Positions 4,293-47,433 of a DNA stretch of 47,433 nucleotides are shown one piece after another. Numbering within the stretch: position 1 is the first letter of the stretch; each line of letters begins with the position of its first letter. The stretch is taken from IMG/VR virus record IMGVR_UViG_3300028654_000026, positions 1-47,433 of that record. One strand, written 5' to 3'. The stretch is from a virus. A model generated the notes under the pieces. That model made no database searches and was not told the origin of the DNA. It was given only the letters and a program-made list of their open reading frames with translations. Position numbers and translations under genes: made by a program.

Positions 4293-4534
4293 AGCGTCCG
4301 CTCCACGTGGTAGCTGCAAAAGCTGGTTCCGTCTTGCTTTACCGTTCCGAGTCCGTGGATGCTATTACACACGTACTCACCGACAGGACGAATAAACTTA
4401 TCGCACGTAATGCACACGGGTGGCTTCGGAGAGTAGGCCACATCAGTCTCACGCACGGCCCGCAACGTGAAGTACTGGCGCTGCATCATCATGTCGGGTC
4501 GAACGTAGATAACCGGTAATTGTCGCGGATTCAT
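4289..4534 (-). CDS. Small protein with a possible zinc-binding site
   Basis: 81 residues. Start at 4534 (MNPRQLPVIYVRP) is preferred because it overlaps the upstream stop as ATGA. Cysteines in CITCDKF, EYVCNS and FCSYH could form a small zinc-binding site of the C-X2-C...C...C/H kind. No family is recognised. Its place in the early operon suggests an accessory role. Confidence 0.5.
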   Translation of the reverse strand: MNPRQLPVIYVRPDMMMQRQYFTLRAVRETDVAYSPKPPVCITCDKFIRPVGEYVCNSIHGLGTVKQDGTSFCSYHVERTL

Positions 4535-4713
4535 GATGGTGCTCCCTGTGCGTTCTTGCTTCCGCGCTTCTGCGATCGACGACAGCCATCGTCGAAAGGA
4601 TGCGCGTCCCAAAATGGCGTTTCTTTCGCTTGCCCATAGATAGGCTCGAGTCCAAGGACGGCGCGAATTGCGTCAACCAATGCATGGTCGGAAGCAATGT
4701 AGCGGTCACTCAT
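4531..4713 (-). CDS. Small hypothetical protein
   Basis: 60 residues from ATG at 4713, overlapping the helicase stop as ATGA, and ending in a 4-base overlap with the next gene. The N-terminal half (DHALVDAIRAVLGLEPIY) looks helical and the C-terminus is basic. No domain recognised. The overlap pattern at both ends is the main support. Confidence 0.5.
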   Translation of the reverse strand: MSDRYIASDHALVDAIRAVLGLEPIYGQAKETPFWDAHPFDDGCRRSQKRGSKNAQGAPS

Positions 4714-6089
4714 CTTCGCACCTGGCCCCACGACATACCGTCAGGCATGCACCCAAAACGCGCCTTGTACTGAGCCACGGCCCATCCAATTCGAAACCGC
4801 TTCACATTGGCAATCGCCTTGACTCGTGCCCACTCCGCACATTTCTCTTCGGGCGTTGCGTCGCGAACAATCGGATTGATGCCGAATTGCGACTTGTACG
4901 TTTTGACGAGCCACCAGAGCGGTTTGCCCTCGGCTACCTGTTGCGCGCGCATGCGAGCAAGGGCAGCATCTTTCGCGTGCTGAACCGTCTCGCGACCGTC
5001 GAACACCTGCTCGAGCTCCTCGTCGAACACCTGCACGGGTAGGCTACGTCGCTCTGTCACGAAGCCACAGATCGGACACTTGCCAACCCACGACTTGCAG
5101 ACGCCGCCACATGCGATGCACTGGCGCAGCTTGAGCACGTTTGCGCGCCTGATTGCCTTGCCCTCGATAGAGTAGGCTCGGTCCTCGGTGGGCAGCCCAA
5201 ACTTGCGATAAGCTCCCGCAAGGTCAATGAGCACGCAGTCGGTCTTGCTCCGATGCATGCGCAGGCCTCGACCGACGATCTGAAGGTAGAGCGCCATTGA
5301 CTCGAGAGAGCGCGCCAGCAAGAGGCACGACACCTGCGGAATGTCCACGCCCTCGGTCAACAGGTGGACGTTCCACAACACCGTAATATCTCCGCGCGCG
5401 AAGGCTTCGAGCTTGCCTCGTCGCACGGTGGGCTCGTCCTCGCCCGTGATGTAGTCGCATCGAATGCCGGCCGCTTGGAACTGCTCGGCCCAAATGCGCG
5501 CTTGCTCGATGCTTGGTGCATAGGCGAGCGTGAGTCTCTTGGTTCCGTGGTCCTTCCAGGCTTTGAGCGGATCGACTGCTAGTCCACCAGTATCGGGTCC
5601 ACCGAACACCTTACACTGACAGATGTGACCCTGCTCTATCAGTTGCGAGTACTGCGCGGCCACCACGATGCGATCGAATAGGCCCTTGAGTGCCTTACCG
5701 TCTGCTCGTGCCGGTGTCGCCGTGAGACCGATTCGACGCTTGTGCCTGATCGTCTTTCGGATCTCGTTCCACTTGTCCGCAGCATAGTGGTGGCACTCGT
5801 CGATGAACAGCCAGTCGCAATCATAGGGCTTGAGTGACTGGATAGTGGTGACAACGAGCTCCTGGAGGCCACCCCAGCCGTGCTCATTGAATGCACAATC
5901 TAGGGTGGCCTTTGCTTGCGCTACCAATTCCTCACGATGCGCGACCCAGCAGATACGCCCGCCGAGTCTTGCCGCGAGCTCGGCGCCCATGGTCGTCTTT
6001 CCGCTGCCGGTCGGCGAAACCAAGCACACGTTCAACTCGTCGGACAGAATGTCAGTAACGGCCGCCGTCTGGTAGTCGCGGAGCTGCAT
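4710..6089 (-). CDS. SF2 DEAD/DEAH-like helicase with C-terminal zinc ribbon
   Basis: 459 residues. The SF2 motifs appear in order: YQTAAV (Q-like), Walker A SPTGSGKTT near 25-33, CWVAHREEL (Ia), TTIQSL, DECHH (II) near 110, GLTATPARADG (III), LTEGVDIPQV (V) and QIVGRGLRMHR (VI). A four-cysteine zinc ribbon (CIACGGVC ... CPICG) follows near residue 345. The architecture is that of phage RAD25/SSL2-type helicases, plausibly acting in replication restart, recombination or branch migration like T4 UvsW. Motif II reads DECH rather than DEAH, as in several phage members. The next gene begins after a 3-base gap. Confidence 0.88.
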   Translation of the reverse strand: MQLRDYQTAAVTDILSDELNVCLVSPTGSGKTTMGAELAARLGGRICWVAHREELVAQAKATLDCAFNEHGWGGLQELVVTTIQSLKPYDCDWLFIDECHHYAADKWNEIRKTIRHKRRIGLTATPARADGKALKGLFDRIVVAAQYSQLIEQGHICQCKVFGGPDTGGLAVDPLKAWKDHGTKRLTLAYAPSIEQARIWAEQFQAAGIRCDYITGEDEPTVRRGKLEAFARGDITVLWNVHLLTEGVDIPQVSCLLLARSLESMALYLQIVGRGLRMHRSKTDCVLIDLAGAYRKFGLPTEDRAYSIEGKAIRRANVLKLRQCIACGGVCKSWVGKCPICGFVTERRSLPVQVFDEELEQVFDGRETVQHAKDAALARMRAQQVAEGKPLWWLVKTYKSQFGINPIVRDATPEEKCAEWARVKAIANVKRFRIGWAVAQYKARFGCMPDGMSWGQVRR

Positions 6090-6092
6090 CGG

Positions 6093-6374
6093 TTATTCCT
6101 TGGTATCGGCAAACAACGGCAGTGAATCGGAAGAGCGGTGTTGCTTCGTGTTTGGGCAAGTCGCGAAGTGGGACGTGTACTTGCGACCACCTAGGCGCCG
6201 ACATTGACTCGCGAGCTCTATAGGACTCTCCACGTGCACGGCTCTAGCGTCTTCCGTAACGTAGAATTTACCGTCAGAGTCCGGCACCGCATCGAACGGC
6301 ATCGACTTACCCGTGGACTGTATCGTGGCGAACACGATTGCCGCCTTGCAGCTGGTGCATTGAGTGACCTTCAT
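6093..6374 (-). CDS. Small zinc-ribbon-like protein
   Basis: 93 residues. The start MKVTQCTSCKAAIVFATI, then GKSMPFDAVPDSDG, matches a widespread small phage and bacterial protein with a CxxC knuckle, a 'tGk.mP.D' strand and a distal HFATCPN that supplies another Cys. It probably binds zinc. Partner or substrate is unknown. It follows the 108-residue protein by a 4-base overlap and precedes the SF2 helicase. Confidence 0.6.
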   Translation of the reverse strand: MKVTQCTSCKAAIVFATIQSTGKSMPFDAVPDSDGKFYVTEDARAVHVESPIELASQCRRLGGRKYTSHFATCPNTKQHRSSDSLPLFADTKE

Positions 6375-6697
6375 AGCTCTGGCTCCTCGCCATCAGTATT
6401 CCGATCGTCCTCGCTGTCCGTGCTCTCAGGTAGCCCAATACCAATCGTTGAATAGTAGTGAGCCCATAGCCCACCGATGCGCGTGCGTACCTTATCTTCG
6501 GTCTCTTCGTGCAGCCCATAGAACGCACTGGGCGAGTAAAGATGCGTTTCCGCGTACAACTCAACGCCGTCAGCATCGGTCGACTTTTTCGGGTGCGGCA
6601 CCTGCACCCGAATCATCTGCACGCCAGCAAATGATACCTCAGTCACGAGACCATGGTGCTGTCGGTGCCCCATGAGCTCGATAGTTCCCCATGTCAC
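6371..6697 (-). CDS. Conserved-type phage protein (WGTIELMGHR family)
   Basis: 108 residues. The N-terminal pattern GTIELMGHRQHHGLVTEVSF, followed by RVQVPHP and a later LYSPSAFYGLHEET, is familiar from short phage proteins of unknown function in early operons. The C-terminus is acidic and probably disordered. No enzymatic motif is seen. It overlaps both neighbours by 4 bases. Confidence 0.6.
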   Translation of the reverse strand: MTWGTIELMGHRQHHGLVTEVSFAGVQMIRVQVPHPKKSTDADGVELYAETHLYSPSAFYGLHEETEDKVRTRIGGLWAHYYSTIGIGLPESTDSEDDRNTDGEEPEL

Positions 6698-7419
6698 GGC
6701 TCACCCCACGAGACGCCGACGAGCTTTCCGTCCTTGACTTCGACGCTCGTGGGTTTCTCGAGTACGATCACGTGACCGGGCAGAACCCAGAGCGCGAATG
6801 CGTACTGACCGAATTCAGCAAACGCTTTGATGCGCGCAGCCTTGTCGGCATCAACTTCGACGATCCCGATCTCAACTGGGAACAGATAAAACGCCATCCA
6901 GTCAGTGTCCCCGAGTGAGTCCCAGAGTGAGTCCTCGAGTGAGTCCCCGAGTGAGTCCCAGAGTGAGGCCCAGAGTGAGGCCCCGAGTGAGGCCCAGTCA
7001 GTGTCCCCGAGTGAGGCCCCGAGTGAGGCCCCGAGTGAGGCCCCGAGTGAGGCCCCGAGTGAGTCCCAGAGTGAAACCCCGAGTGAGGCCCTGAGTGAGT
7101 CCCCGAGTGAGGCCCTGAGTGAAACCCCGAGTGAGGCCCTGAGTGAGTCCCAGAGTGAGGCCCAGAGTGAGGCCCAGGGTGAGGCCCAGAGTGAGGCCCC
7201 GAGTGAGGCCCCGAGTGAGGCCCAGAGTGAGGCCGCCTCTTTCGGCGTCTTTACCCAATGGATCTCATACTTGACCAGTGCCGGGGCCACTATCACCGAG
7301 ATCGCCGACTCTGCCGCTGTCTTGTCAGTGACGGTACTAGTGGCCGCGTCGAACATCCGCTGACGGAACTGCTCGAGGGTAAGTTGCTGCTCGTCGGTTA
7401 GCTTATCGAGTTTGGCCAT
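6694..7419 (-). CDS. Tetrapeptide-repeat protein with DUF6745-like C-terminus
   Basis: 241 residues in three parts. Residues 1-60 are a mixed helical N-terminus. Residues about 62-173 are 28 tandem tetrapeptides of the form (A/D/V)SL(G/W/R), with two DTDW units at positions 20 and 28. Residues about 174-241 ([13 protein letters not shown] ... [20 protein letters not shown]) are a conserved-looking end resembling DUF6745 proteins, which also carry W/D-S-V/L repeats. Gly/Trp/Arg alternation gives a regular surface, perhaps a solenoid. Because unit number can change by slippage in multiples of 12 bp, length could vary without frameshift. Function unknown; start overlaps the previous stop as TAATG. 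Confidence 0.75.
6898..7238. repeat. 12-bp minisatellite, about 28 units
   Basis: On the + strand the unit is close to CCCCGAGTGAGG with CAG/CCG and GGCC/GTCC variants, repeated without interruption. GTCAGTGTCCCCGAGTGAG recurs at about 6901 and 6998, marking an internal higher-order duplication. Since 12 is a multiple of three, every frame on both strands stays open through it, producing long spurious ORFs. Confidence 0.92.
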
Positions 7420-8358: not shown

Positions 8359-9176
8359 TGCAGCACCGCCAGTCGTGCTCGTTCGCTCACTTCACGCTTG
8401 CGCAGACCATGAGCACGGAATCCGATGATTGAGCGCCCTGTGGTGCGCGCGCATAGGCCGCACCGTGAGCAGTTGATACTCGAGTCGCGCTCGGCAGCAC
8501 ATACAACCACGCGCCTGTCTTCGGGCGTGCGCAGCTCGTTCAGCGCATCAACGGGCAGCACCACCGCGACGGGCCCGTACTGCGAGAGGTCGTCAGCTTG
8601 CGCCAGATTGTCCGCGGATAGGTTGATCGTCAGCCCGTGCCGAGTCGCATCAATCGCCGCCTCGAGGCCGATCGAAGTGGTCCACTTGTGAGTGAATCCG
8701 AATCCGCGTTTGCCATGGTTGGCGTCAACGAGGCAATCGAGCGCGACATGGTCGATATCGTCACCAACACCAGGCAGATCGCCAACCTCGGCGTATCTCC
8801 ACAGCTGGCGGTGCGGCAACTGAGCAATGAAGCAGCAGAGCTCAATCCAGTCGACCCCGAGCCGCTCAACGTCGCGCCACTTGTTGCGCAATATGTGTGA
8901 CTCACCGAAGCAACCCGCGTTGAAGTGTGAACAGCTCGGTGGGCAGGTGGACGCCGTGACGGCCACCGACGGAATCGGCCCAAGCTTCGAATTCTTCGAC
9001 CGCTCGTTGATGATCACCCGTAGCGGGCTGGCGGTCGGAAGTCCTTTGCGATGGTCGGTGACCGGTGACTTACCCTTAGTCCGACAGGTGACGCAGTCCT
9101 GGTACAAGTGGCCGGGACTGCGCCCCGTGAACTCGACCATGGGCTGCTTGCGCCAGCACTGGTTGCAGCGCCTCAC
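8355..9176 (-). CDS. GP88-like cysteine-motif phage protein
   Basis: 273 residues, GTG start with GGTGGAG five bases upstream. An N-terminal zinc knuckle (CNQCWRKQ ... DCVTCRTKG) is followed by SKNSKLGPIPSVAV, then TCPPSCSHFNAGCFGES, the layout of phage GP88/DUF7227-type proteins. A second Cys cluster (INCSRCGLC) lies near residue 237. Function of the family is unsettled; the Cys-rich core suggests metal or cluster binding. It is the first leftward gene after attP, so it could be left of the integration site in a prophage and transcribed from its own promoter. Confidence 0.65.
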   Translation of the reverse strand: MRRCNQCWRKQPMVEFTGRSPGHLYQDCVTCRTKGKSPVTDHRKGLPTASPLRVIINERSKNSKLGPIPSVAVTASTCPPSCSHFNAGCFGESHILRNKWRDVERLGVDWIELCCFIAQLPHRQLWRYAEVGDLPGVGDDIDHVALDCLVDANHGKRGFGFTHKWTTSIGLEAAIDATRHGLTINLSADNLAQADDLSQYGPVAVVLPVDALNELRTPEDRRVVVCAAERDSSINCSRCGLCARTTGRSIIGFRAHGLRKREVSERARLAVLQ

Positions 9177-9200
9177 AGCTCCACCCCGCCGACCAATAAA

Positions 9201-9398
9201 CTGGACCGTCCAGAATACTCAGTCCAAAGCAGTCCAATCGAGACCCCGGCGCTAGAACCGGCGCAGTATAAATGCCGCTTGAATTCACTGCATGAGAACC
9301 GGGTGCCGCATTCAGGTTCTAGTGGGCTAACGCTCTTGGGGGTTCGATTCCCCCTCTTCGCACCACCCTGGACGGGTTGTCCAGGAAACTTGTCCAGG
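9201..9398. repeat. GTCCAG/CTGGAC repeats flanking the att core (candidate arm sites)
   Basis: Left of the core: the palindrome CTGGACCGTCCAG at 9201-9213, then GTCCA at 9222 and 9232. Right of the core: CCTGGAC-GGGTT-GTCCAGG at 9367-9385 and a further GTCCAGG at 9392-9398, inside the direct repeat TTGTCCAGGAAACT. AGAACCGG also occurs twice on the left (9254 and 9295). Repeats on both sides of an attP core are what integrase arm-type or excisionase sites look like. The right-hand copies reach the integrase stop codon. Confidence 0.5.
9311..9365 (+). other. attP core: 3' part of tRNA-Leu(CAG) from anticodon loop to CCA
   Basis: The segment reads as anticodon loop TTCAGGT (CAG), 3' anticodon strand TCTAG, a 15-base leucine-type variable arm, T-arm GGGGG-TTCGATT-CCCCC, acceptor TCTTCGC, discriminator A and encoded CCA. 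The bases before it (GGTGCCGCA) do not pair with TCTAG, and no GCGAAGA acceptor start lies upstream, so the 5' half is absent. A tRNA 3' end next to an integrase gene is the classical attP arrangement: recombination restores the host tRNA-Leu. The 9177-9402 stretch holds no gene besides this. Confidence 0.85.
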
Positions 9399-9402
9399 AA
9401 AC

Positions 9403-10527
9403 TCAGACAGCCGCGGCGCGCTTGGCAGCAGCCTTGGCCATTGCCCTCGAGCCCGCCCGAGCACTGGTCCGCATGTAGCGAGCCGTGGTGGACATGTGCA
9501 GGTGCCCCAGTACGTACTGAACGCCCGTGATGTCCCCGTCGCTTTGCTCGAGTAGGTGGGTACCACCCGCCGAGCGCATGTGTTGTGGGCAAAGCCGGTT
9601 GGCCTTGTGCTTCGGCATCTTGGCCTCGAGCGCAGCCGTCAGCAGAACCCGCTTGTACCGGTGTCGGCCGAAGATGAGGCCATCGCCCTCGAGATGCAGA
9701 GCCTCCAAGGCCCGCACGCACTCCGGTGGCAGGTCGATCATGCGTTCGATCCCGATCTTGTCGTGCTCCTTGGGGATCCACCAGTCGGTGCGCCCTGGTG
9801 ACCACGTGACGCCGAGCTTGGCCACGTTCAGCACTTCGGGCCGCAGAGCGAGATAGTAGCCGAGCACAAAGCGAGCTCGTATCGGGTAGCGATTGCCGAG
9901 AGCATCGCGCCTCGACCATTCGGGAAGCGCGGCAATCAAACGAAGTATTTCCTCGGGGCTGTGCTCGTCCGCAGCGCACCGACGAGCCTTCGAGTAGCGC
10001 GTGCCCTTCGCGCGCACTGGCACACTCGGCACAGCGAACGGTGCAGATATGTGACCATGCTTGTGCGCATAGGCCACCAGCTGCCGGTAGCACGAGAATT
10101 CTTTGCGCACGGTCTTGGCCTGCACCTTTGCCAATCGTTTCGCAAGCAGGCGTTCGAAGGCTTCGACAGACCACGCCGCGGTCGTCGGCATCTCGGTTTC
10201 GAGTGCGTAGATGTAGAGCTCGCACGTCTCGCGAGTGGTCGCGCGCAGCACGCCCACCGTTGACGCTAGCCATTGCGCACCAACCTTAGAGGTTGACTTG
10301 CCTTCAATGACTGGTGAGCGCCCTGCTTGGTGTTCGCGTTCTGGCTCAAGTGTGCCAGCGAGGGCTGCGAGGTATTTCTCGAGCGCTTTGCTTTGAGCCT
10401 CGCTTCTATCGTACGTGCCAAGTCCGAGGTCGAAATCCCGTCCGTCGTCGAGCGTGAAGAGCACCTCGTACGGTCTGTCTCGTCGTTGTCTGATGCGGTA
10501 CGGCGTATCGAGTTTCGGGCGACCCAT
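9403..10527 (-). CDS. int: Tyrosine recombinase, phage integrase
   Basis: 374 residues. An N-terminal arm-binding-like domain (MGRPKLDTPYRI..., about 1-60), a SAM-like core-binding domain (about 80-175) and the catalytic domain follow. Catalytic residues: Arg229 (LALRPEV), Lys253 or Lys257 (IPKEHDK), Arg318 (CPQHMRSAGGTHLL), His342 (VLGHLHM) and Tyr351 (TARYM). Aligning on R..GGTHLL, the usual His of HxxR is Gln315, with a His one residue later. The 3' end faces attP 38 bases away, and the 5' end overlaps the excisionase-like gene by 262 bases. It should integrate the genome into a tRNA-Leu(CAG) gene. Confidence 0.93.
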   Translation of the reverse strand: MGRPKLDTPYRIRQRRDRPYEVLFTLDDGRDFDLGLGTYDRSEAQSKALEKYLAALAGTLEPEREHQAGRSPVIEGKSTSKVGAQWLASTVGVLRATTRETCELYIYALETEMPTTAAWSVEAFERLLAKRLAKVQAKTVRKEFSCYRQLVAYAHKHGHISAPFAVPSVPVRAKGTRYSKARRCAADEHSPEEILRLIAALPEWSRRDALGNRYPIRARFVLGYYLALRPEVLNVAKLGVTWSPGRTDWWIPKEHDKIGIERMIDLPPECVRALEALHLEGDGLIFGRHRYKRVLLTAALEAKMPKHKANRLCPQHMRSAGGTHLLEQSDGDITGVQYVLGHLHMSTTARYMRTSARAGSRAMAKAAAKRAAAV

Positions 10528-17345: not shown

Positions 17346-17878
17346 ATCGAGCCTTTCATCAGCACGTCACAATCAATCACGTGTTGCAGTGGCCGCCCCC
17401 AGTTCCACGACCACGGCCCGCGCTTGCTCGTGATCTCGTTATCGTGAGCTCCACCGCCGGCGAGCTCGACTTGCTTGGTGTCATCGGGGTCACTGATGCA
17501 AAACGCTACATGGTCGTTCGGTTTGCCGTCGTTAGCCCAATGCAGCAATGAGCCAGCAGTAGGTGGGGTACCTGACGCTGAGTAACGCACGAGCGCCCCC
17601 TTATCGCGAGCAATCTGCAACACCCAAGCGATGGCCATCCCGCTCTTGTACGGGCACCGCAGCAGCTCGTGATCGACCCGGCAGTGACGCCAGACACCTA
17701 ACGCGAACATGCCGCAGTTCGTCGCGATTCGAACCGCCTGCTCAGGATCGTCACCCGGAGCGCACACGAGCGCGGCAAGCTCGTCACGTCGATTCGACAG
17801 CGAGCAACCAACGTAATCGCGCACGGTGCCGATGATGAGCCGTTGGTTCTCGCCCCAGATTTCGGACAGGTCGGTCAC
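17342..17878 (-). CDS. NlpC/P60-like cysteine peptidase, endolysin candidate
   Basis: 178 residues. A catalytic-type Cys55 in IATNCGMFALGVW and His123 in NDHVAFC, separated by a helix and a small-residue loop (AGSLLHWAN), follow the NlpC/P60/CHAP layout. The third polar residue is not obvious. There is no signal peptide or separate cell-wall-binding domain. Neighbours are a membrane protein downstream and the tail fibre upstream, so it is either the endolysin or a virion-associated wall peptidase. Assignment rests on motif spacing only. Confidence 0.55.
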   Translation of the reverse strand: MTDLSEIWGENQRLIIGTVRDYVGCSLSNRRDELAALVCAPGDDPEQAVRIATNCGMFALGVWRHCRVDHELLRCPYKSGMAIAWVLQIARDKGALVRYSASGTPPTAGSLLHWANDGKPNDHVAFCISDPDDTKQVELAGGGAHDNEITSKRGPWSWNWGRPLQHVIDCDVLMKGSI

Positions 17879-20382
17879 GCTAACCTCAGGGACAGATCAT
17901 CAAAGTACGCAGTTCCGCGCGCCGTTGCTGGGCAGTAGCAGGATATGGTTGCTTTGCCGTCTAGCGGCGCGATGAATTGCACGGACGACTGTGCGTACAC
18001 GGCGCCAATCGATAGAGTTGTGGGCCACGTTATCAGGTCGGTAGTAGCGGTGTTTTGCACGCGAAGTCGCCCCGCGTGCACGCCGTCGCCTCGCGCCCAA
18101 CCGCTTAGCTCATACACCTGATTTGGCACTAGCCCTAGTACCGTCTGGGTGATTCGAGTGTCTACCGACACGCCAGCAATGAGCTTGATCGCTACCCTAC
18201 GACTCGTGTCTTCGTGTACTTCTCGCGGTACGGTTGTGCGCGCCACCGCCCCGTCGCTGGCTGTGGCCGTCCAGTAGCATGTGAGCGTCGGGGATCCGAT
18301 CGGTATCGATTCAAAACTCCCGTTAGGCAGACACTCGAAGGACTGATCAAATATCAAACCCTCTTGCGTCAGTACTAGCTGGTCCATCGTGCCGTCGAAT
18401 GTAAACAGCTCATAGTGCAGTGTCGCCTGGTCAGGCAGGCCCGAGGCAAGCGCGTACACCCTCCCGTTATGCTCGCAGAGTGACCAGTCAGCAAGCTGCC
18501 CGATCGCTCCGCTGGTACCCGCAAAGGGTTTTCCGTTAATCTCACTGTACTGTTGCACACAAAAACCGTCCGTCGATTGATGCCACGGTCCGAACAAACT
18601 GTCAGCCTCGAACCTCCACATGTTATTATTTATGATCGTGTAGTAGCCAGCAGCATCGATGCGTGGCGTTGACCACGCATAATATTTGCCGCCCTTCGAC
18701 TTGTACAACATCGGTGCTGTCATGTTGTGTAGCAGTGGATTTGTTACACTCGGCAGCAGCGGATTTCCTTCGAAAGGAATCCAGGTGTGTCCGCCATCCA
18801 CGGATGTAGTCAGCCCGCACTGATAATGTACGTCGGTGTCCGGGTATCCGTCGTAGAATAGATACATCGTGCCCCGCTCGACATACAGAAATGAATTACC
18901 TCCGATATTATGATTCCACGCTCCGACGCCGCCCGCTATTGCAACGTGGCTCGCAAACTTGACCCAGAATAACCCATCCACCGATCGCCACAGATCCAGA
19001 TCTGCGTTGTTAAATGTGACGGACCAATAGTAATCTGTTTCGAGATCGTGCGCTAAGCACGGTCTGTAGTTCCAGCCATCGATAACTGGCCCTGGATATC
19101 TGACCCAATTTTTGCAATCGATCGACTCAGCATACCCGACGCCGTGCGTTCCGTCAGAGCCTGGGGCGGTGTCCCAAAGTTTGAACACCTTGTCTGCGCC
19201 GTGAATTAGCTTAGGGTTGCTCTCACACAGCAGATTGGGTTCCCCTCTCGCCTCCCCGCCGATTACATCCTCCAGCACCACACCCTCTGCACGCCAAACA
19301 CCGGGCGTTAGCCTGCTAGACTGTGATATCTGGAAGTCAGTAGCAGCCATATTCAGCACAAATGCGTGCGCTACGTATCCAGGCCACGCCCGCGCCGCCG
19401 TCGGGAAACTGATCGCACACTTTCCAGCATCTAGTGAGCTGTCTATGAGCGGCGAGGTACTTGCTTGAGCTTTCCGAAATCCGTCTAAATATACGATAAC
19501 TAGACCCGTCGTAACCGAAAATGTTGCACAGATGTAGTGCCAAGCATTGGTTGTAACGCCCGTGAGCGGCACCCTGGTCCCGCCGGTTGAGCCGAAATAG
19601 TAGATACTAATAGTGCCGTTATTCGCTGTCCCACCATCGTGACACAAGAAAACAGACTGTGTTCCGTTAGCATTTCCGAGCTGTAAAACGCACTCGTTTT
19701 TTCCGTTAGTCCAGATGCTATCATCAGTGATTTTGACCCAAGCGCCGATGGTTATTTCTGCCGGGTTGAATGCATCGCGCAATTTGTCGGAATAGATCGC
19801 CGTCGAGGCAATTGGCAACACGGTATAGAGAGCCGCTGTCTGCCCGTCGCCAATACCTGCCTGCGCCAGCGTGACATTGCTGTACGTGCCGTTTGAATTC
19901 GTCGGGCTGCTATCCGTTGCGGTGGTTCCTCCTGACGCTTCATTTTGCTGCCAATACCCGATCAGAGCATTGCCGAATAAGGCTTGAATCTTGTCAGAAT
20001 ACGTGCCGATTTGCAGCAGGAGACCTCGACTGAACTTCGTGCCAGCGCTATCGGTGACCGTGACCACTACCATACCAGTATTTCGCGCCGTCGGCGTGCC
20101 GCTGATGACACCGGTGGACGCGTTGATCGCGAGCCCAGCGGGAAGCCCCACCGCTGCAAACGTGAGTGGCGCGACGGCTCCCGTCATGGTGATTTGCTGC
20201 GTATACGTGAGCCCAATCGTGCCACCGGCGAGGACAGTCTGGTCGATGTTGGGAACTGCTTGCTGCACATTGCCACCGCCACCGCCACCGCCACCGCCAG
20301 TAGCCGACTTTCCAGGTGGACCAATCGGACCCCTGAGACCTCGTATCCCCTGTGGACCGCGCTCGCCTCTTAGATTCGCCAT
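17875..20382 (-). CDS. Multidomain tail fibre/receptor-binding protein with beta-propeller
   Basis: 835 residues. Residues 7-24 are a short collagen-like Gly-X-Y segment and 29-38 poly-Gly. An Ig-like He_PIG repeat (LPAGLAINASTGVISGTPT) spans about 45-125, and a LamG/concanavalin-like domain about 150-355 (ITIGAWVKI, NAWHYICATF). A five-bladed propeller of the GH43/GH32/sialidase type spans about 370-690, with Asp-box-like SVDGLFW and SVDGGHTW. A C-terminal jelly-roll (about 700-835) resembles a carbohydrate-binding module. It probably binds, and perhaps cleaves, surface polysaccharide; the catalytic acids were not identified with confidence. AGGAAGG precedes the ATG. Confidence 0.75.
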   Translation of the reverse strand: MANLRGERGPQGIRGLRGPIGPPGKSATGGGGGGGGGNVQQAVPNIDQTVLAGGTIGLTYTQQITMTGAVAPLTFAAVGLPAGLAINASTGVISGTPTARNTGMVVVTVTDSAGTKFSRGLLLQIGTYSDKIQALFGNALIGYWQQNEASGGTTATDSSPTNSNGTYSNVTLAQAGIGDGQTAALYTVLPIASTAIYSDKLRDAFNPAEITIGAWVKITDDSIWTNGKNECVLQLGNANGTQSVFLCHDGGTANNGTISIYYFGSTGGTRVPLTGVTTNAWHYICATFSVTTGLVIVYLDGFRKAQASTSPLIDSSLDAGKCAISFPTAARAWPGYVAHAFVLNMAATDFQISQSSRLTPGVWRAEGVVLEDVIGGEARGEPNLLCESNPKLIHGADKVFKLWDTAPGSDGTHGVGYAESIDCKNWVRYPGPVIDGWNYRPCLAHDLETDYYWSVTFNNADLDLWRSVDGLFWVKFASHVAIAGGVGAWNHNIGGNSFLYVERGTMYLFYDGYPDTDVHYQCGLTTSVDGGHTWIPFEGNPLLPSVTNPLLHNMTAPMLYKSKGGKYYAWSTPRIDAAGYYTIINNNMWRFEADSLFGPWHQSTDGFCVQQYSEINGKPFAGTSGAIGQLADWSLCEHNGRVYALASGLPDQATLHYELFTFDGTMDQLVLTQEGLIFDQSFECLPNGSFESIPIGSPTLTCYWTATASDGAVARTTVPREVHEDTSRRVAIKLIAGVSVDTRITQTVLGLVPNQVYELSGWARGDGVHAGRLRVQNTATTDLITWPTTLSIGAVYAQSSVQFIAPLDGKATISCYCPATARGTAYFDDLSLRLA

Positions 20383-40973: not shown

Positions 40974-41192
40974 GTGACCAAACACATCGACAACCAAACG
41001 ACACTAAAGATAGCGTCCACGGCGGGCTGTGCACCATCATCCGTCAGGAAGTACATTAGAGGTGAGCAGATGCAAGCCGCTACCAAGATGCACATTGTAG
41101 GAGCTCTGCGACGACTACGACGGCAGGATCTACTAGTGAACACAACGCCGTCAAGCTTGGCCGTGACGAGCATGCCGGGGTCGAAGGCGTGA
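40974..41192 (+). CDS. Small HTH protein, rightward island in the late region
   Basis: 72 residues, GTG start with AGGGAG upstream. TTLKIASTAGCAPSSVRKYI, then RGEQMQAATKMHIVGALRRL, is a classic helix-turn-helix of the Mor/XRE-like small type. It is transcribed opposite to all surrounding late genes and shares a control region with the portal operon, so it is a good candidate regulator of structural gene expression (inference). Confidence 0.6.
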   Translation: MTKHIDNQTTLKIASTAGCAPSSVRKYIRGEQMQAATKMHIVGALRRLRRQDLLVNTTPSSLAVTSMPGSKA

Positions 41193-41416
41193 GCGTCAAG
41201 CAGGCAGAAGTTGGCCTTGCGCGTGCTATCGATGACGCTGAGCAATATCGAGCGCTGGCAGGTGGAGGTCCGCTATTAATACCTCAGCCGATCACGCCAT
41301 CACCGGGGACCCTCGAAGTCGTTATCTCGATTCCGACGATCGAGGCCTGGGAAGAGTTCCAATCGAACTTCCAAGAGCTCGACAAGCAAATCAGAAAAGC
41401 ACTAGGAGGTCAGTGA
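41189..41416 (+). CDS. Small hypothetical partner of the HTH protein
   Basis: 75 residues; GTG start overlapping the HTH stop as GTGA. Middle Pro-rich (PLLIPQPITPSPGTLEVVIS), then a helical end (EEFQSNFQELDKQIRKALGG). No domain recognised. Coupling suggests joint function with the HTH protein. Confidence 0.5.
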   Translation: MSVKQAEVGLARAIDDAEQYRALAGGGPLLIPQPITPSPGTLEVVISIPTIEAWEEFQSNFQELDKQIRKALGGQ

Positions 41417-41665: not shown

Positions 41666-41922
41666 GATTCGCCCCGCATTCTAGACAGCGCACCGATCCC
41701 CCAGCCCACGCGCTCTGACATCTCGCGACGCTTCCTTGGATCAGCCATCTCAAGAGCAAACCTCGAACGCTCAGCTCCACCAGCGCCGTCATCGCTCCAC
41801 GTGGACTTTCCCCAATCACTCTCATGGTAATGCTCACCCTCGTGTCCGTGCTCGAGCATGCAGAGCGTCGGGTGTTCGCGGTCAAGTTGAAACGGCGACA
41901 CCGCACAGCAAAAGCTAGACAT
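41662..41922 (-). CDS. Small hypothetical protein with CxxH-rich N-terminus
   Basis: 86 residues from ATG at 41922, overlapping the upstream stop by 8 bases. FCCAVSPFQLDREHPTLCML, then EHGHEGEHYHESDWGK, is rich in Cys and His and resembles short phage zinc-binding proteins (C......H..H). The C-terminus is basic and helical. Function unknown. Confidence 0.5.
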   Translation of the reverse strand: MSSFCCAVSPFQLDREHPTLCMLEHGHEGEHYHESDWGKSTWSDDGAGGAERSRFALEMADPRKRREMSERVGWGIGALSRMRGES

Positions 41923-42064
41923 TCGGTCCACCGCGATCGAGCTTCTTGCTGATTGCCTTCAGCTCCGCCAAGATGGCGTCAATCTTCCAGTACCAAAGCA
42001 CCCACGCGCGAGCGGCGAGGAAGATGACGAGCGCAACGATTAGAACTCCAAGTGCAGCGGTCAT
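41915..42064 (-). CDS. 49-residue single-pass membrane protein
   Basis: Starts MTAALGVLIVALVIFLAARA, a clear N-terminal membrane helix, followed by an amphipathic segment (WKIDAILAELKAISKKLDRG). It overlaps the lipoprotein stop by 4 bases and the next gene by 8. Together with the lipoprotein it may form a two-component envelope unit such as a miniature spanin-like or exclusion pair; that is inference. Confidence 0.55.
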   Translation of the reverse strand: MTAALGVLIVALVIFLAARAWVLWYWKIDAILAELKAISKKLDRGGPNV

Positions 42065-42501
42065 ATCTTCGGCTCACACATGTTGCAGGCATCGCACAAC
42101 AACCCCGTAGCGCACGACGTCACCTGCGAGACCGAGTTGAAGATGCAAGGACAGTAAAGCTCACCGAGCTGGGGGCACGACGTGTGCGGTCCGACGTAGT
42201 TGGTCGATGTAGCGGTCACCACGCAGATCGCAGTAGCCATCGACGACCCGCCAGTTGCGTTGGCTCCACCCGTTGCAGCGACGCGCCCACCAGTCGCGAG
42301 CGCGCCTCCCGTTGCTTTCATTCCACCGGTTGCGAGTGCGCCACCGGTTGCCGCTCCACCCGTGGACGAGGCAGAGTCGCCACCCGTGGCGATACTGGAC
42401 TGGAAAACTTCCGCGTTCACCTCGCCACCGTCCACGATAATATTCGTGGTCGAAGTACTCGAGCAAGCCACCAAACACAGTGCAATCGCCATAATCCTCA
42501 T
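42061..42501 (-). CDS. Second ATGG-repeat lipoprotein
   Basis: 146 residues from ATG at 42501. Lipoprotein signal MRIMAIALCLVACSS; then repeats (SSTGGAATGGALATGGMKAT and onwards, to about residue 92) and a Cys-rich C-terminus (CPQLGELYCPC, CATGLLCDACNMCEP). Same architecture as the 21200-21625 protein with little sequence identity outside the repeats. It is coupled to a small membrane protein. Candidate outer-membrane-anchored surface protein. Confidence 0.62.
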   Translation of the reverse strand: MRIMAIALCLVACSSTSTTNIIVDGGEVNAEVFQSSIATGGDSASSTGGAATGGALATGGMKATGGALATGGRVAATGGANATGGSSMATAICVVTATSTNYVGPHTSCPQLGELYCPCIFNSVSQVTSCATGLLCDACNMCEPKI

Positions 42502-42573: not shown

Positions 42574-42861
42574 CTACTCATCTAGCTTGCGCTCCTGCCG
42601 CTTGAGCATCTCGATGGTTGCCTTGGTCCCATGTAGCGCCTCAAAATATTTGAGCGAATCGGGCACCTTCACTTCGCCCGGCCTGTGGTGGTACCAGGGG
42701 GTTCTGGATGCGCGACGGCCCGCACGGTTTTGACGCTTAGCTCGCTCCAATAGCTCGTTTTCGTCGGGGAGCTTTTCTGGCTCTGCCGTTGCGCTGTCAA
42801 TTGCACCGAGCACACGAACGAGGCCTCGACGCAGAGCGAGCAGCAAAGGGCGCGCGTTCAT
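42574..42861 (-). CDS. Small basic hypothetical protein
   Basis: 95 residues, Arg/Lys-rich and helical (PDENELLERAKRQNRAGRRA, LKYFEALHGTKATIEMLKRQ). It overlaps the glycosyltransferase stop as ATGA. No family recognised. Possibly a DNA- or capsid-associated small protein. Confidence 0.5.
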   Translation of the reverse strand: MNARPLLLALRRGLVRVLGAIDSATAEPEKLPDENELLERAKRQNRAGRRASRTPWYHHRPGEVKVPDSLKYFEALHGTKATIEMLKRQERKLDE

Positions 42862-44945
42862 GGCGCCTCAACTGTTGCCGTGAGCTCTTCGTACAGTAGG
42901 CAATAGTTTAGTGCACATTCGTGCATAGTAGAACCGGTCCAGCTCACCACAATTCTACTGCTCGGCGGTCGCAACGCTCCAAGCTCACACGCTAGAGACG
43001 AAGCGTTTCCCCACTGGTACCAACCAACGCCGACGACAACATCGTCTAGCCGCTCGCGCATTGTCGGCACGCTCGCAACCATCACAGGGCAACCGGCGGC
43101 CAGGCACTCGTCCACCGCCATTCCGTACGCCTCCTTTCGCGCCACTGCGGGCACAGCCACGTCAACGCTCTGCAGCAGCTGCGGCAATTCTTCTGGCGAA
43201 TAACGACCATGAAACCTCACGTGTTCAAGCTTGCTACGATCTGCAAACTCCACCCACTCACCGAGCACCGAGAATTCAAAACGGTTATCGTACTTGAGTA
43301 CTCGAGCGGCATCAGCAAACGCGTCCCACCCCTTCTCGGGCAGCACGCCGCCGACCCATGCCACCCTAACCCTATCCGTTGGGCGGTACGTATCAGCAAA
43401 CGGGTAGCTCGGTACGCCATGGGGGATCAACACTGTCTGAAGTTTTGCCCCGTCAATTCGATGACAACTCACATTTCGCTCGTAGCGCTCACGTAGAGAT
43501 TCACTCGGGAACACGATGCGGTCGACGTAACCCAACATCGACCCCACCTCGAGCGGTCGACGCTCAAGAAGCATCGGAAAGCTATCCGAGTGTCTCCCCT
43601 CCACTCGCACGGTCCACTCTTGCTCGACGCACTCTCGGCATTGCTGACAATCCTCGGCCGCGTCGCGTCCGCAGCTCCACCCCGCTGTCAGGTACGACGG
43701 GCAAAGGTAGAAGTCGTCGTGCACCGATAGGACCGTTGGGCAATATGCTCGCGCGATCTCGGGCAAACGAAACGTGCCAAAACCGCCGAGGTGTTGGAAG
43801 TGCACCACCTCCGGAGCCAGCGACTCGAGGCAATCGCAAAACCACTTCTCCACGTGCTCGGCGCGCAGCTGGAAAGGGAAGATTCCAAGGTCGATTTGCG
43901 ACTGCACCAGATGCGGCGCCATCACGATGTGAAGCTCACCGAACTCACCGACATGAGTTGAGGATTCGAGCGCCGCCTCCCGTGTCGGGTACATCACCAC
44001 GACGTCGAGCGACTCGCACAGTTCTTTGACGAGTCGCCGCTGAAACACCTCGAGCCCACCGAGCTTGCCCCAATGGTGGCAGACGAAGAGCACGCGCTTA
44101 CGATTACCGGTGCGACGTTGCCACAATCGAATTGCGATACTGACACGGTGTTGTGTCTGTTTGCCCTCGAGACACCAGTTATCAACGACCTTGTCGAATC
44201 CTGGATACTGCTCCAGAAACATCGCCTGGTGTTCTTCGCGTAGCTTTCGGGCGCGCCACCCAAATGACGCATGGTGTTCGTGCCACACGAAGAGGTTGTC
44301 AGCGAGAATACACGAGAACCCGGCAGCCTTGGCGCGCACGCTCCAATCGGTTTCTTCACCGTAACCCTTGCCCCACTTCGGATCGAAGCTCCCGACGGCC
44401 TCGAGCGCTTCACGAGTCAGCATCATGCAAAAACCGACGGCGCAAGGAATCTCGGGGAAAGACTCGCCTGAGGTCTCTTCGACGATGTGATCCATAGCCT
44501 CGGGGTCAAGCCAGTCAGGAAGGTCATTGTCGTAAGCGTTCGGTACCGAGTAGTGGCTGGCGTTATTCGACAGTGGAGATATCGCACCGACGCGCACCCC
44601 GCGTTCAGTCCCTTGCGCTCGCGCCTCGTCGATACGCTCGACCCACCTCGGAGGCACTATCGTGTCCGAGTTGAGCAAGATGGGCTCGGTACCAGTCGCC
44701 AGCGCTTCACGAATTCCCTCGTTCGCAGTCTTGACGAAGCCCAGATTCTTCGAATGAAACGTCACGATCATTCGCTCGCTCCAAGTAAAGTCTTGCAAAT
44801 AGCGAATGACGTCGCCCTCTCGACTGCAATCGTCAATCACTAGGATGCGATGCTCTTTCGGTGTATTCCTCAGCACCGAATCGATGCACTTCTTGACGTG
44901 CTCGAGCGCTCCAAAAACTGGGATGATGATGGTGTACTTGTTCAT
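42858..44945 (-). CDS. Two-domain glycosyltransferase (GT2-type plus GT4-type)
   Basis: 695 residues. Residues about 1-270 are a GT-A family 2 domain: YTIIIPVFGALEHVKKCIDS, ILVIDDCS, NLGFVKTANEG, ILLNSDTIVP (the DxD-like NSD) and KGYGEETDWSVRAKAAGF. Residues about 285-695 are a GT-B domain: VLFVCHHWGKLGGLEVFQRR, VAWVGGVLPEKGWDAFADAA and, near 630, KEAYGMAVDECLAAGCPV (E-x7-E, GT4). It should make or extend a glycan with two linkages. In a phage late operon it may glycosylate virion proteins, DNA or host surface glycan. Overlaps terminase by 4 bases. Confidence 0.85.
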   Translation of the reverse strand: MNKYTIIIPVFGALEHVKKCIDSVLRNTPKEHRILVIDDCSREGDVIRYLQDFTWSERMIVTFHSKNLGFVKTANEGIREALATGTEPILLNSDTIVPPRWVERIDEARAQGTERGVRVGAISPLSNNASHYSVPNAYDNDLPDWLDPEAMDHIVEETSGESFPEIPCAVGFCMMLTREALEAVGSFDPKWGKGYGEETDWSVRAKAAGFSCILADNLFVWHEHHASFGWRARKLREEHQAMFLEQYPGFDKVVDNWCLEGKQTQHRVSIAIRLWQRRTGNRKRVLFVCHHWGKLGGLEVFQRRLVKELCESLDVVVMYPTREAALESSTHVGEFGELHIVMAPHLVQSQIDLGIFPFQLRAEHVEKWFCDCLESLAPEVVHFQHLGGFGTFRLPEIARAYCPTVLSVHDDFYLCPSYLTAGWSCGRDAAEDCQQCRECVEQEWTVRVEGRHSDSFPMLLERRPLEVGSMLGYVDRIVFPSESLRERYERNVSCHRIDGAKLQTVLIPHGVPSYPFADTYRPTDRVRVAWVGGVLPEKGWDAFADAARVLKYDNRFEFSVLGEWVEFADRSKLEHVRFHGRYSPEELPQLLQSVDVAVPAVARKEAYGMAVDECLAAGCPVMVASVPTMRERLDDVVVGVGWYQWGNASSLACELGALRPPSSRIVVSWTGSTMHECALNYCLLYEELTATVEAP

Positions 44946-47335
44946 TGGTGTCTGCCTTTCTTGATATTCCTCATGTACGTGTTGAACGCGTCTCGCGGGT
45001 TGACCGCTTTCACTTGTGACTCTGCATCTTGCTGCTCAGCTTCTGTCGTATCCTCAGCCACCGGGAACGCGTGGTGCATGTACGCCGCATAGGCAAACAC
45101 GCGCAGCATATCCAGGCGGTCTGGGCTTCGGTGCAGAACCTTGCGGTATCCTTCGGGGCCATCCTTGCGCGTCGCAGATCGAATCGAGTCGTACCAGACA
45201 CCATCAACACGACGACGAACGAAGTACCACTTTGAGTGATTCATCTCTTGGCGCAACTTGTCATCGTGCGGGACGGCCCCACCTCGAGCAAGCCACCGTG
45301 CCAAGTGATAATGCGCCTCGTCGCCCACGAGCTCGAAGTCAAACTTCGCGGGTGCCTGCTGACCGAAGTACACCGGCACGACCTCGAACAACACCTTCTC
45401 GTGAGCAGCCAAGCGCGTCGTTGCCAAGTAGTCCTCGAGGCGATTCACCACCTTGTGTCCAACGCCGTCAGCATCCACGGCAACGATTGCCACCTCGTTG
45501 CGGTGCTCGCGGTGTCGCTCGATGAGCTCAATGACTAGGTCCAGATAATCTTCTTTCGTCCACGCGCGACCGACGCGCTTCTCAAGTAACTTGAAACCAC
45601 GCACGGCACCCGCACACGCCTCGTCGCCCTCGCCACTCTCGCCCGCTGGATCGATAGGAATTACGAGCCGTCCGCGCGCTTCGGTTGCGGAGTAGTTATC
45701 GACGTCTTGCGAGCGCAGTATATGCTGCGGTTGGTAGATACACAGCTCGTCAAACTTCGGGTACAGCCCGCGGTTGTTGATGAGGTAGATCGGGTTCTCT
45801 CGGCCACGGTCGTCAGACAGCTCATCCGCTTTCAGCTCGGCAGCATCGGGTAGGTAAGGCAGCTTAGTGCGTGCTGCAACCTCACCGCTCAAGTTCACGA
45901 CGTTCCAACCGTACAACGCTCGAGTCTTCTCGTCGTTGACCGCGTCCCACATCGGATGTTCTGCACTGTCGAGGCAGTTACCTGGCCCAAAGAAACGCGC
46001 TTCGGGTCCCGCGATATTTCCCTTCCATGCGTTGAACAGCTCGTAACTCAGCCCCGAAAACTCGTCGCAAATAACGAGGATATGAATGCCGTGGTACCCA
46101 CCGAGCGACGTTGCCTCTTTGCCAGTGATGCCGATGATGAAGCGTTCCTTGTCATCGCTCCAGATCCCCTTGGTCGGCGTTTCGCATGGCTCCGCATCAA
46201 TCACCTGAGAGTGCGGGCAAGGTCGAGCGGTGACACCAGCGCGCCTGCAGTCGAGACAGATCCCTGATCGGCTCAGGCATCGAAGAATCTCCGCCCAGTC
46301 CTGGGTTCGCAGCTGCACGCCCGTGAAGTTGGAAACACATACGCGACCATCCTCCCAGCAGCAGTAACGCCACCATGACAGCCAACCAACGCCCTTAGTC
46401 TTACCAACACCACGTGCACTGGGTCCCACTGTGCGCTTGTGGTCTCGCACCGATTCAAGCAGCGTCACCTGGTCGTCGTCGGTACCGTCCGGATCTTCCC
46501 ACGGGTCCTCGCCAAGGATGGTGCGCACGAAGCCCACCGGGTCGTTTTGAAATTCGGTGCAAGGGAACGATATCGATCGAACGCACTCGAGGGAGCGCGC
46601 CAGGCGATCTGCAAATGGACCGCTACCAGTGAGCGCACCGATGACGAGCAAACGGTCGTGAGGCAACGGCTTGAGCAGCGCGCACACCGTCGTCTCGGTG
46701 GACGCCCAAGCTCCCGTGCGCATGAGGTCCTCAGGCTCGTCGCGCCGCTCGTACTTTTCGATCACGCGCGCAGTCGACCGTCTGAACTGCGAGTGACGAC
46801 GGTAGAGCTCGGACTGGACGTCGGGGTCGATGCTCGTTTGACGCTCGACGGACTCAGGCAGCAGCTCTCGCATCGTCGCCAATGACTTGGAAATCTCGAC
46901 GGCTGGTCCAGACGTTGGCGGCTCGAGAAGCACCGAGCGCAACTCGGGGTGAGTGCAGGCACCGAGCACACACGAGCGCATTGCCTGGTACTGCATGTGC
47001 CCAACGAGGCGGTCGATCTCGTTGAGAGCCCCAACGTGGGACTCGATGACGCCCGTGCAGTCGGCCACCGTCGCCAGCGCGCGAGATAGCCATGCGACCT
47101 CGGGGTTCGTCTTTAGGTCGCTCGACCCGCGACGAGGTGACGGCGCTTCCTGCTCGGCTACCGGGTAAGCCCTAGCCAGTCTCGCTAGGAAGTCCGCAGA
47201 CGGGGGCCGCTTCCCGTTGCGCACTAGGGAAGCCGCGGTGCGCGAAACCCCCATTGCCGTGGCGACGGTGGCTATTCCCCAGCGGTCGCAGAGGGTGGCG
47301 AGGCGTTCGAGGGCTACCGAAATCTCAGGACTCAT
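44942..47335 (-). CDS. terL: Terminase large subunit with N-terminal HTH domain
   Basis: 797 residues. Residues 1-60 are an XRE/Cro-like HTH (LATLCDRWGIATVATAMGVS, RTAASLVRNGKRPPSADFLA). Residues about 75-290 are mostly helical. The ATPase has Walker A GPSARGVGKT (304-313) and Walker B HILVICDEFSG (418-428), with a Cys/His insertion C360-C363-C373-H375. The RNase-H-like nuclease shows VIPIDPAGESGEGDE and IVAVDADGVGH. No separate small subunit gene was found, so the N-terminal part may recognise DNA. It packages the genome; upstream GTAACG repeats are a possible target. Confidence 0.85.
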   Translation of the reverse strand: MSPEISVALERLATLCDRWGIATVATAMGVSRTAASLVRNGKRPPSADFLARLARAYPVAEQEAPSPRRGSSDLKTNPEVAWLSRALATVADCTGVIESHVGALNEIDRLVGHMQYQAMRSCVLGACTHPELRSVLLEPPTSGPAVEISKSLATMRELLPESVERQTSIDPDVQSELYRRHSQFRRSTARVIEKYERRDEPEDLMRTGAWASTETTVCALLKPLPHDRLLVIGALTGSGPFADRLARSLECVRSISFPCTEFQNDPVGFVRTILGEDPWEDPDGTDDDQVTLLESVRDHKRTVGPSARGVGKTKGVGWLSWWRYCCWEDGRVCVSNFTGVQLRTQDWAEILRCLSRSGICLDCRRAGVTARPCPHSQVIDAEPCETPTKGIWSDDKERFIIGITGKEATSLGGYHGIHILVICDEFSGLSYELFNAWKGNIAGPEARFFGPGNCLDSAEHPMWDAVNDEKTRALYGWNVVNLSGEVAARTKLPYLPDAAELKADELSDDRGRENPIYLINNRGLYPKFDELCIYQPQHILRSQDVDNYSATEARGRLVIPIDPAGESGEGDEACAGAVRGFKLLEKRVGRAWTKEDYLDLVIELIERHREHRNEVAIVAVDADGVGHKVVNRLEDYLATTRLAAHEKVLFEVVPVYFGQQAPAKFDFELVGDEAHYHLARWLARGGAVPHDDKLRQEMNHSKWYFVRRRVDGVWYDSIRSATRKDGPEGYRKVLHRSPDRLDMLRVFAYAAYMHHAFPVAEDTTEAEQQDAESQVKAVNPRDAFNTYMRNIKKGRHQ

Positions 47336-47433
47336 GGCGTAACGCCCCCGTTACAGGTTCGTGATTTGGTGACCGGTGGACCGTTTTCGTTACTGGCTGT
47401 AAATTTTGAAAGTCCGCGCAGGGAAAATCTGAG
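47336..47433. promoter_or_regulatory. Region upstream of terminase with GTAACG repeats
   Basis: No gene. Contains the hairpin GTAACG-CCCC-CGTTAC at 47339-47354, directly before the terminase ATG, and a third CGTTAC at 47388-47393. Presumably holds the late promoter; clear -35/-10 boxes were not found. The sites could be bound by the HTH of the terminase or mark a packaging site. Confidence 0.45.

Follow-up and report, generated by a model that had tools for sequence, protein, structure and literature searches.

A two-domain glycosyltransferase gene coupled to the terminase gene in a lineage of uncultured phages

The terminase-glycosyltransferase gene run

The DNA analysed here (the window) is the whole of IMG/VR virus record IMGVR_UViG_3300028654_000026, 47,433 bases from an uncultured phage, in which a gene for a two-domain glycosyltransferase (GT) lies next to the terminase gene. 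The genes, domains and motifs concerned are as follows.

44942..47335, minus strand: terminase large subunit with an N-terminal helix-turn-helix (HTH, TerS-like) region, 797 aa (PHROG 2 terminase, 4.4e-10; HTH_31/HTH_3)
42858..44945, minus strand: two-domain GT, 695 aa (open reading frame, Pfam, purifying selection, homologues in the same slot in 3 other phages)
44163..44945, minus strand: GT-A (GT2-like) domain, residues 1-261 (Pfam PF00535, AlphaFold, VIA-align)
44664..44672, minus strand: N92-S93-D94, DXD-equivalent metal/donor motif of the GT-A domain
44343..44366, minus strand: GYGEETDW motif, presumed catalytic acid (E197/E198/D200)
42981..44105, minus strand: GT-B (GT4-like) domain, residues about 281-655 (Pfam PF13439/PF13692, VIA-align)
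43107..43133, minus strand: E605-x7-E613, donor-binding motif of the GT-B domain
42574..42861, minus strand: conserved partner, a 95-aa protein with a basic amphipathic N-terminus, overlapping the GT gene
42061..42501, minus strand: lipoprotein with lipobox LVAC and Thr-Gly-Gly repeats (open reading frame; start chosen by alignment to the L007 homologue, at an ATG)
41915..42064, minus strand: 49-aa membrane protein, overlapping the lipoprotein gene (hydrophobic segment, Kyte-Doolittle 2.58)
40974..41416, plus strand: two small overlapping genes that separate the GT cassette from the portal gene; the first is HTH-like (open reading frames)
9403-10527: probable tyrosine recombinase (integrase; weak Phage_integrase match, selection)

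The plus strand across 42858-44945 is broken by stop codons and the GT frame reads on the minus strand, a point on which the preliminary description was silent. In the minus-strand direction the order is HTH-terminase (47335-44942), GT (44945-42858), the 95-aa protein, the lipoprotein and the small membrane protein. The GT start at 44945 and the terminase end at 44942 overlap by four bases, which agrees with the translational coupling to terminase proposed in that description, and the GT stop is overlapped by another four bases by the gene for the 95-aa protein. Beyond the plus-strand pair at 40974-41416 lie the genes for the portal (PF06074), an S49 protease, a Mu-like head protein (PF10124), a sheath-like protein and the baseplate. 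The "late operon" of the preliminary description thus stands in so far as the GT gene belongs to the terminase gene run, but this run is split from the portal-capsid-tail run by the plus-strand pair. Late expression of the GT gene is predicted. Promoters and terminators around the GT cassette did not rise above chance expectation, and no RNA families were found.

As for the genes behind the GT, a homologue of the 95-aa protein occupies the same position in the related phage contig L060 (E 2.5e-9, 14.6 sd above shuffled sequences), while L028 contains a weak candidate (p ~0.01). Lipoproteins occur in the corresponding place in the window, L007 and L060; the style of this lipoprotein presumably resembles that of Myxococcota; the papers searched included none on Myxococcus phages with a GT and terminase. 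Opposite-strand genes comparable to the plus-strand pair precede the portal gene in L007, L009 and L060. Since the first gene of the pair has no Pfam HTH match, "HTH-like" is a reading from its sequence. A CRISPR-like mini-array was observed at the contig end of L009 (1-271; the same as L064, contig IMGVR_UViG_3300031240_000179), immediately before the HTH-like gene that precedes portal. It comprises four exact copies of a 36-bp repeat, separated by spacers of 35-36 bp, of which two are identical; the repeat is absent from other IMG/VR contigs and the spacers match none of the loci examined. The array may be carried by the phage, or the contig end may be chimeric.

The close relative G002 (L004/L007) allowed selection to be measured. 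Over the C-terminal 229 codons of the GT gene, the part seen in G002, dN was 0.10 and dS 0.58 (dN/dS 0.17) with no stops, and the GT gene is thus maintained under purifying selection. A chance open reading frame is ruled out by this selection together with the synteny described below. The GT block is 85% identical between the two genomes at the nucleotide level, compared with 98% for the flanking structural genes (a single change in the portal, 98.9% in the sheath). Hence, the GT block has either been exchanged or evolved faster than its surroundings.

Elsewhere in the window, the frame at 9403-10527 scored 23.6 bits against Phage_integrase, under the cut-off of 27.1. Because this frame is under selection (dN/dS 0.07 against G002) despite the weak Pfam match, a temperate lifestyle appears likely, and the lysogens presupposed in the preliminary description gain support. 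A 366-aa frame overlapping it (9173-10273) was rejected as a gene on its dN/dS of 3.7 versus 0.07. Two further features were observed: a 12-bp unit repeated in tandem about 27 times at 6909-7234, within the open reading frame 6694-7419, and an 835-aa tail protein (17875-20382) with a collagen-like start and Ig, lectin-like Laminin_G_3 and carbohydrate-binding domains, which is likely a sugar-binding receptor protein.

Domains, catalytic residues and bacterial homologues

The preliminary description had recognised a GT-A (GT2) and a GT-B (GT4) domain in one chain, and both Pfam and structure prediction agree (folds at Z 21 and 30). Pfam identified Glycos_transf_2 (PF00535) at residues 5-184 (3.8e-15) and Glyco_trans_1_4 (PF13692) at residues 527-639 (7.3e-11, passing the cut-off), with Glyco_transf_4 (PF13439) at residues 296-493 slightly below the cut-off (3e-6). 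The GT-A part of the AlphaFold model reached a pLDDT of about 90 for most of residues 1-210. Its best fold match was GalNAc-T2 (VIA-align Z 21.2, 235 residues aligned, rmsd 3.4), followed by WrtF (Z 18.5); GalNAc-T2 belongs to GT27, polypeptide GalNAc-transferases that pair a catalytic with a lectin domain and act on proteins, yet the Pfam class here is GT2, with no match to a lectin domain. Modelled on its own, the second half gave a mean pLDDT of 74 and a pTM of 0.78, and was closest to MshA (Z 30.1, 355 aligned, rmsd 3.2) and PglA (Z 27.9), with WaaG likewise close in fold. The first half therefore combines a Glycos_transf_2 domain, a DXD equivalent, an acidic catalytic residue and a fold at Z 18-21, as in the GT-A/GT2 superfamily, and the second the double Rossmann GT-B fold and E-x7-E of the GT-B/GT4 superfamily. 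No transmembrane segment was found in the GT (highest 19-residue hydropathy 1.39).

Thirteen bacterial two-domain homologues were aligned with the GT, for example WP_347100755.1 (Sagittula stellata) and WP_011387755.1 (Rhodospirillum rubrum). They share its collinear GT-A and GT-B domains and its catalytic residues at 24-29% identity over ~630 residues. Invariant between the GT and all 13 are N92, D94, E197, E198, D200, H409, K538 and E605. N92-S93-D94, E605 and E613 are invariant in the four phage homologues, and G194, Y195, E197, E198 and D200 of the GYGEETDW motif in the bacterial and phage alignments alike. Loss of NSD or E-x7-E in relatives, which the preliminary description would have counted against its reading, was thus not seen. 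The NXD motif has been identified as a DXD equivalent in the GT2 module of Klebsiella O7 ORF6 and tested there by mutation (PMC11231755). The GT is an intact two-domain enzyme with conserved catalytic residues, and these residues and the modelled folds predict that it is catalytically active.

Most of the 13 homologues lie in surface-polysaccharide clusters with rfb genes, ABC exporters and nucleotide-sugar enzymes, in keeping with the link to polysaccharide synthesis drawn earlier for this enzyme type. Whereas the bacterial enzymes belong to glycan operons and frequently have additional domains, the phage GTs occupy a terminase-portal slot and form their own clade. Two GT modules per chain are also found in E. 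coli O9 WbdA and Klebsiella O7 ORF6, O-antigen polymerases of ABC-transporter systems, the latter again with NXD in its GT2 module (PMC11231755). However, WbdA and ORF6 work within complete systems for glycan assembly that include an exporter and a terminator, none of which was found in the window phage.

The glycosyltransferase slot across the phage lineage

GT homologues were located in three diverged phages: L028 (37% identity to the window GT) and L029 (35%) by profile search, and L060 (41%) via a portal search. In all four phages, the window included, the GT gene follows the HTH-terminase gene, with the portal next after the slot in L028 and L060. In L029 one small open reading frame separates terminase from GT, and the contig ends inside the GT gene. 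Among the four, the terminases are 38-55% and the GTs 33-41% identical, as compared with 59-72% for the portal and 45-55% for the capsid where these are present. In L028, a 267-bp piece of portal (4526-4792 and 5828-6094) recurs, in frame and at 99.6% identity, within the 3' end of the GT gene; this is either an assembly artefact or a recent duplication.

The outgroup phages L041, L042 and L043 have no GT between terminase and portal. Their terminases (25-33% identity) and portal genes are more distant, and the terminase-portal gap spans only ~70-260 bases and holds no more than a single small HTH gene. Their terminase is preceded by an HTH gene in its own right (211-221 aa), while the terminases of all four GT-bearing phages carry an N-terminal HTH region of ~240 residues, which looks like a fusion of the small and large terminase subunits. 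The window (47336-47433), L003 (1-98) and L029 (1-98) all end exactly 98 bp before the terminase start, and one of these three contigs is only 55% identical in terminase. This common 98-bp end suggests a genome end there, probably a real terminus, although the records may be incomplete.

In a maximum-likelihood tree of three phage GTs (window, L028 and L029; L060 was not included) and 14 other sequences, the phage GTs formed one clade with a support of 100/100. A single GT gain before the four lineages diverged, followed by retention, would be the simplest history. The best matches of the GT outside these phage contigs are bacterial, and 50,697 annotated phage records contained no full-length relative of the window or L060 GT; a single scan of GTDB contigs with a 65-residue piece returned only a 41% match, to a 303-aa GT2 protein in a Bacteroidota genome. 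Bacterial best matches and annotated isolate phages devoid of the GT would fit passive cargo recently acquired from a bacterial polysaccharide cluster and having no phage role. The purifying selection on the gene, its shared slot in 4/4 diverged phages and the separate phage clade speak against such cargo, which the synteny largely refutes and which we regard as scarcely credible. As four lineages are a small sample, "core gene" is to be read as a strong lead, short of proof.

Possible acceptors of the glycan

Sequence cannot separate a virion acceptor from a host-envelope acceptor. Tentatively, and with confidence falling somewhat short of even, we favour virion glycosylation, in which the GT puts a glycan on a phage structural protein. 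A soluble bifunctional GT would be produced together with the terminase and would draw on host nucleotide sugars; one domain would add the first sugar and the other extend it, so that the glycan would comprise two sugars or more. Glycosylation of the likeliest acceptor, a structural protein of the phage, would take place in the cytoplasm during head and tail assembly, and the progeny particles would thereby bear a sugar coat. The two-step transfer, the order of its steps and the acceptor are what we infer for this enzyme. In general, core lytic genes are retained in one slot, while seroconversion genes are usually sporadic cargo. Virion glycosylation is supported by retention of the GT with terminase in 4/4 lineages, by the lack of a membrane segment and by the mycobacteriophage precedent; the mostly polysaccharide-cluster homologues, the envelope-type neighbours and the differing architecture in Che8 count against it.

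That precedent comes from Che8, Corndog and Myrna, whose glycosylated proteins are made with their own GTs (PMC12363180). Likewise, phage-encoded GTs such as Che8 gp108-110 and Corndog gp38 are reported to act on the particle of the phage that encodes them (PMC12363180, PMC11256854). In Che8, the one mycobacteriophage whose GT architecture was compared, separate single-GT proteins (GT2 plus methyltransferase, GT2-like and GT25) lie at the genome end, with no GT-A/GT-B fusion beside terminase. Given this difference in architecture, the Che8-type enzymes are ruled out as members of the same family.

Alternatively, the GT may add sugars to lipid-linked precursors of a host surface polysaccharide, blocking adsorption of sibling or rival phages late in infection or in lysogens, a reading we hold to be nearly as likely as virion glycosylation. 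Most of the aligned bacterial homologues sit in polysaccharide contexts, and the GT-B half folds much like PglA and WaaG, enzymes whose substrates are lipid-linked or LPS glycans. The lipoprotein, the membrane protein and the 95-aa protein with its basic amphipathic N-terminus point, as far as their sequences go, to an envelope link; the 95-aa partner would perhaps dock the GT to the inner membrane. The lipoprotein and membrane protein could, however, serve lysis instead. The likely temperate lifestyle (integrase at 9403-10527) suits an envelope target as well, and so does a GT block exchanged or diverging faster than the structural genes (85% versus 98%), a pattern that an arms race over the host surface would also produce. 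On the other hand, exclusion genes would not usually be retained in every lineage (4/4) or coupled to terminase, and no Gtr cluster is present.

The Gtr seroconversion system consists of GtrA, membrane GtrB and polytopic Gtr. Temperate phages with such systems resemble the window phage in encoding a GT that may change host glycans, but a Gtr cluster is ruled out here, since the GT has no transmembrane segment and no GtrA or Gtr(type) neighbours. The match of the GT to the GtrB PHROG reached only E 0.025. Among the window proteins scanned, lipid-carrier, flippase and sugar-nucleotide families gave no match, a result that favours a virion acceptor.

T-even phages glucosylate their DNA, so a GT acting on phage DNA against restriction has a known counterpart, and coupling to the gene of the packaging enzyme would suit it too. 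Modification of packaged DNA, also raised in the preliminary description, is nevertheless disfavoured because no base-premodifying enzyme was found: the thymidylate synthase/dCMP-hydroxymethylase family (PF00303) was absent at E <= 1 in the window (G000), G002 and G003, records that may be incomplete, by a search that detects 9 of 14 controls. Furthermore, the homologues come from glycan clusters and no Pfam match is a DNA glycosyltransferase family. We consider a DNA acceptor very improbable.

Phage GTs as such are already known, and PHROGs places them under morons. What is new here is a two-domain GT tied to the terminase slot across a deep phage lineage. Phage GTs are usually described as cargo, whereas the window GT looks like a core gene. 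Because it is tied to terminase across this lineage and absent just outside it, the GT probably serves the phage's own cycle. If, as is conceivable yet rather doubtful, a two-step GT with a dedicated small partner is core throughout the lineage, every particle would bear a glycan of two or more sugars specified by the phage, making virion glycosylation obligatory outside the mycobacteriophages. Should a virion coat prove true, particle glycosylation would reach beyond mycobacteriophages; should the acceptor lie in the host envelope, superinfection control would be wired into the packaging gene run.
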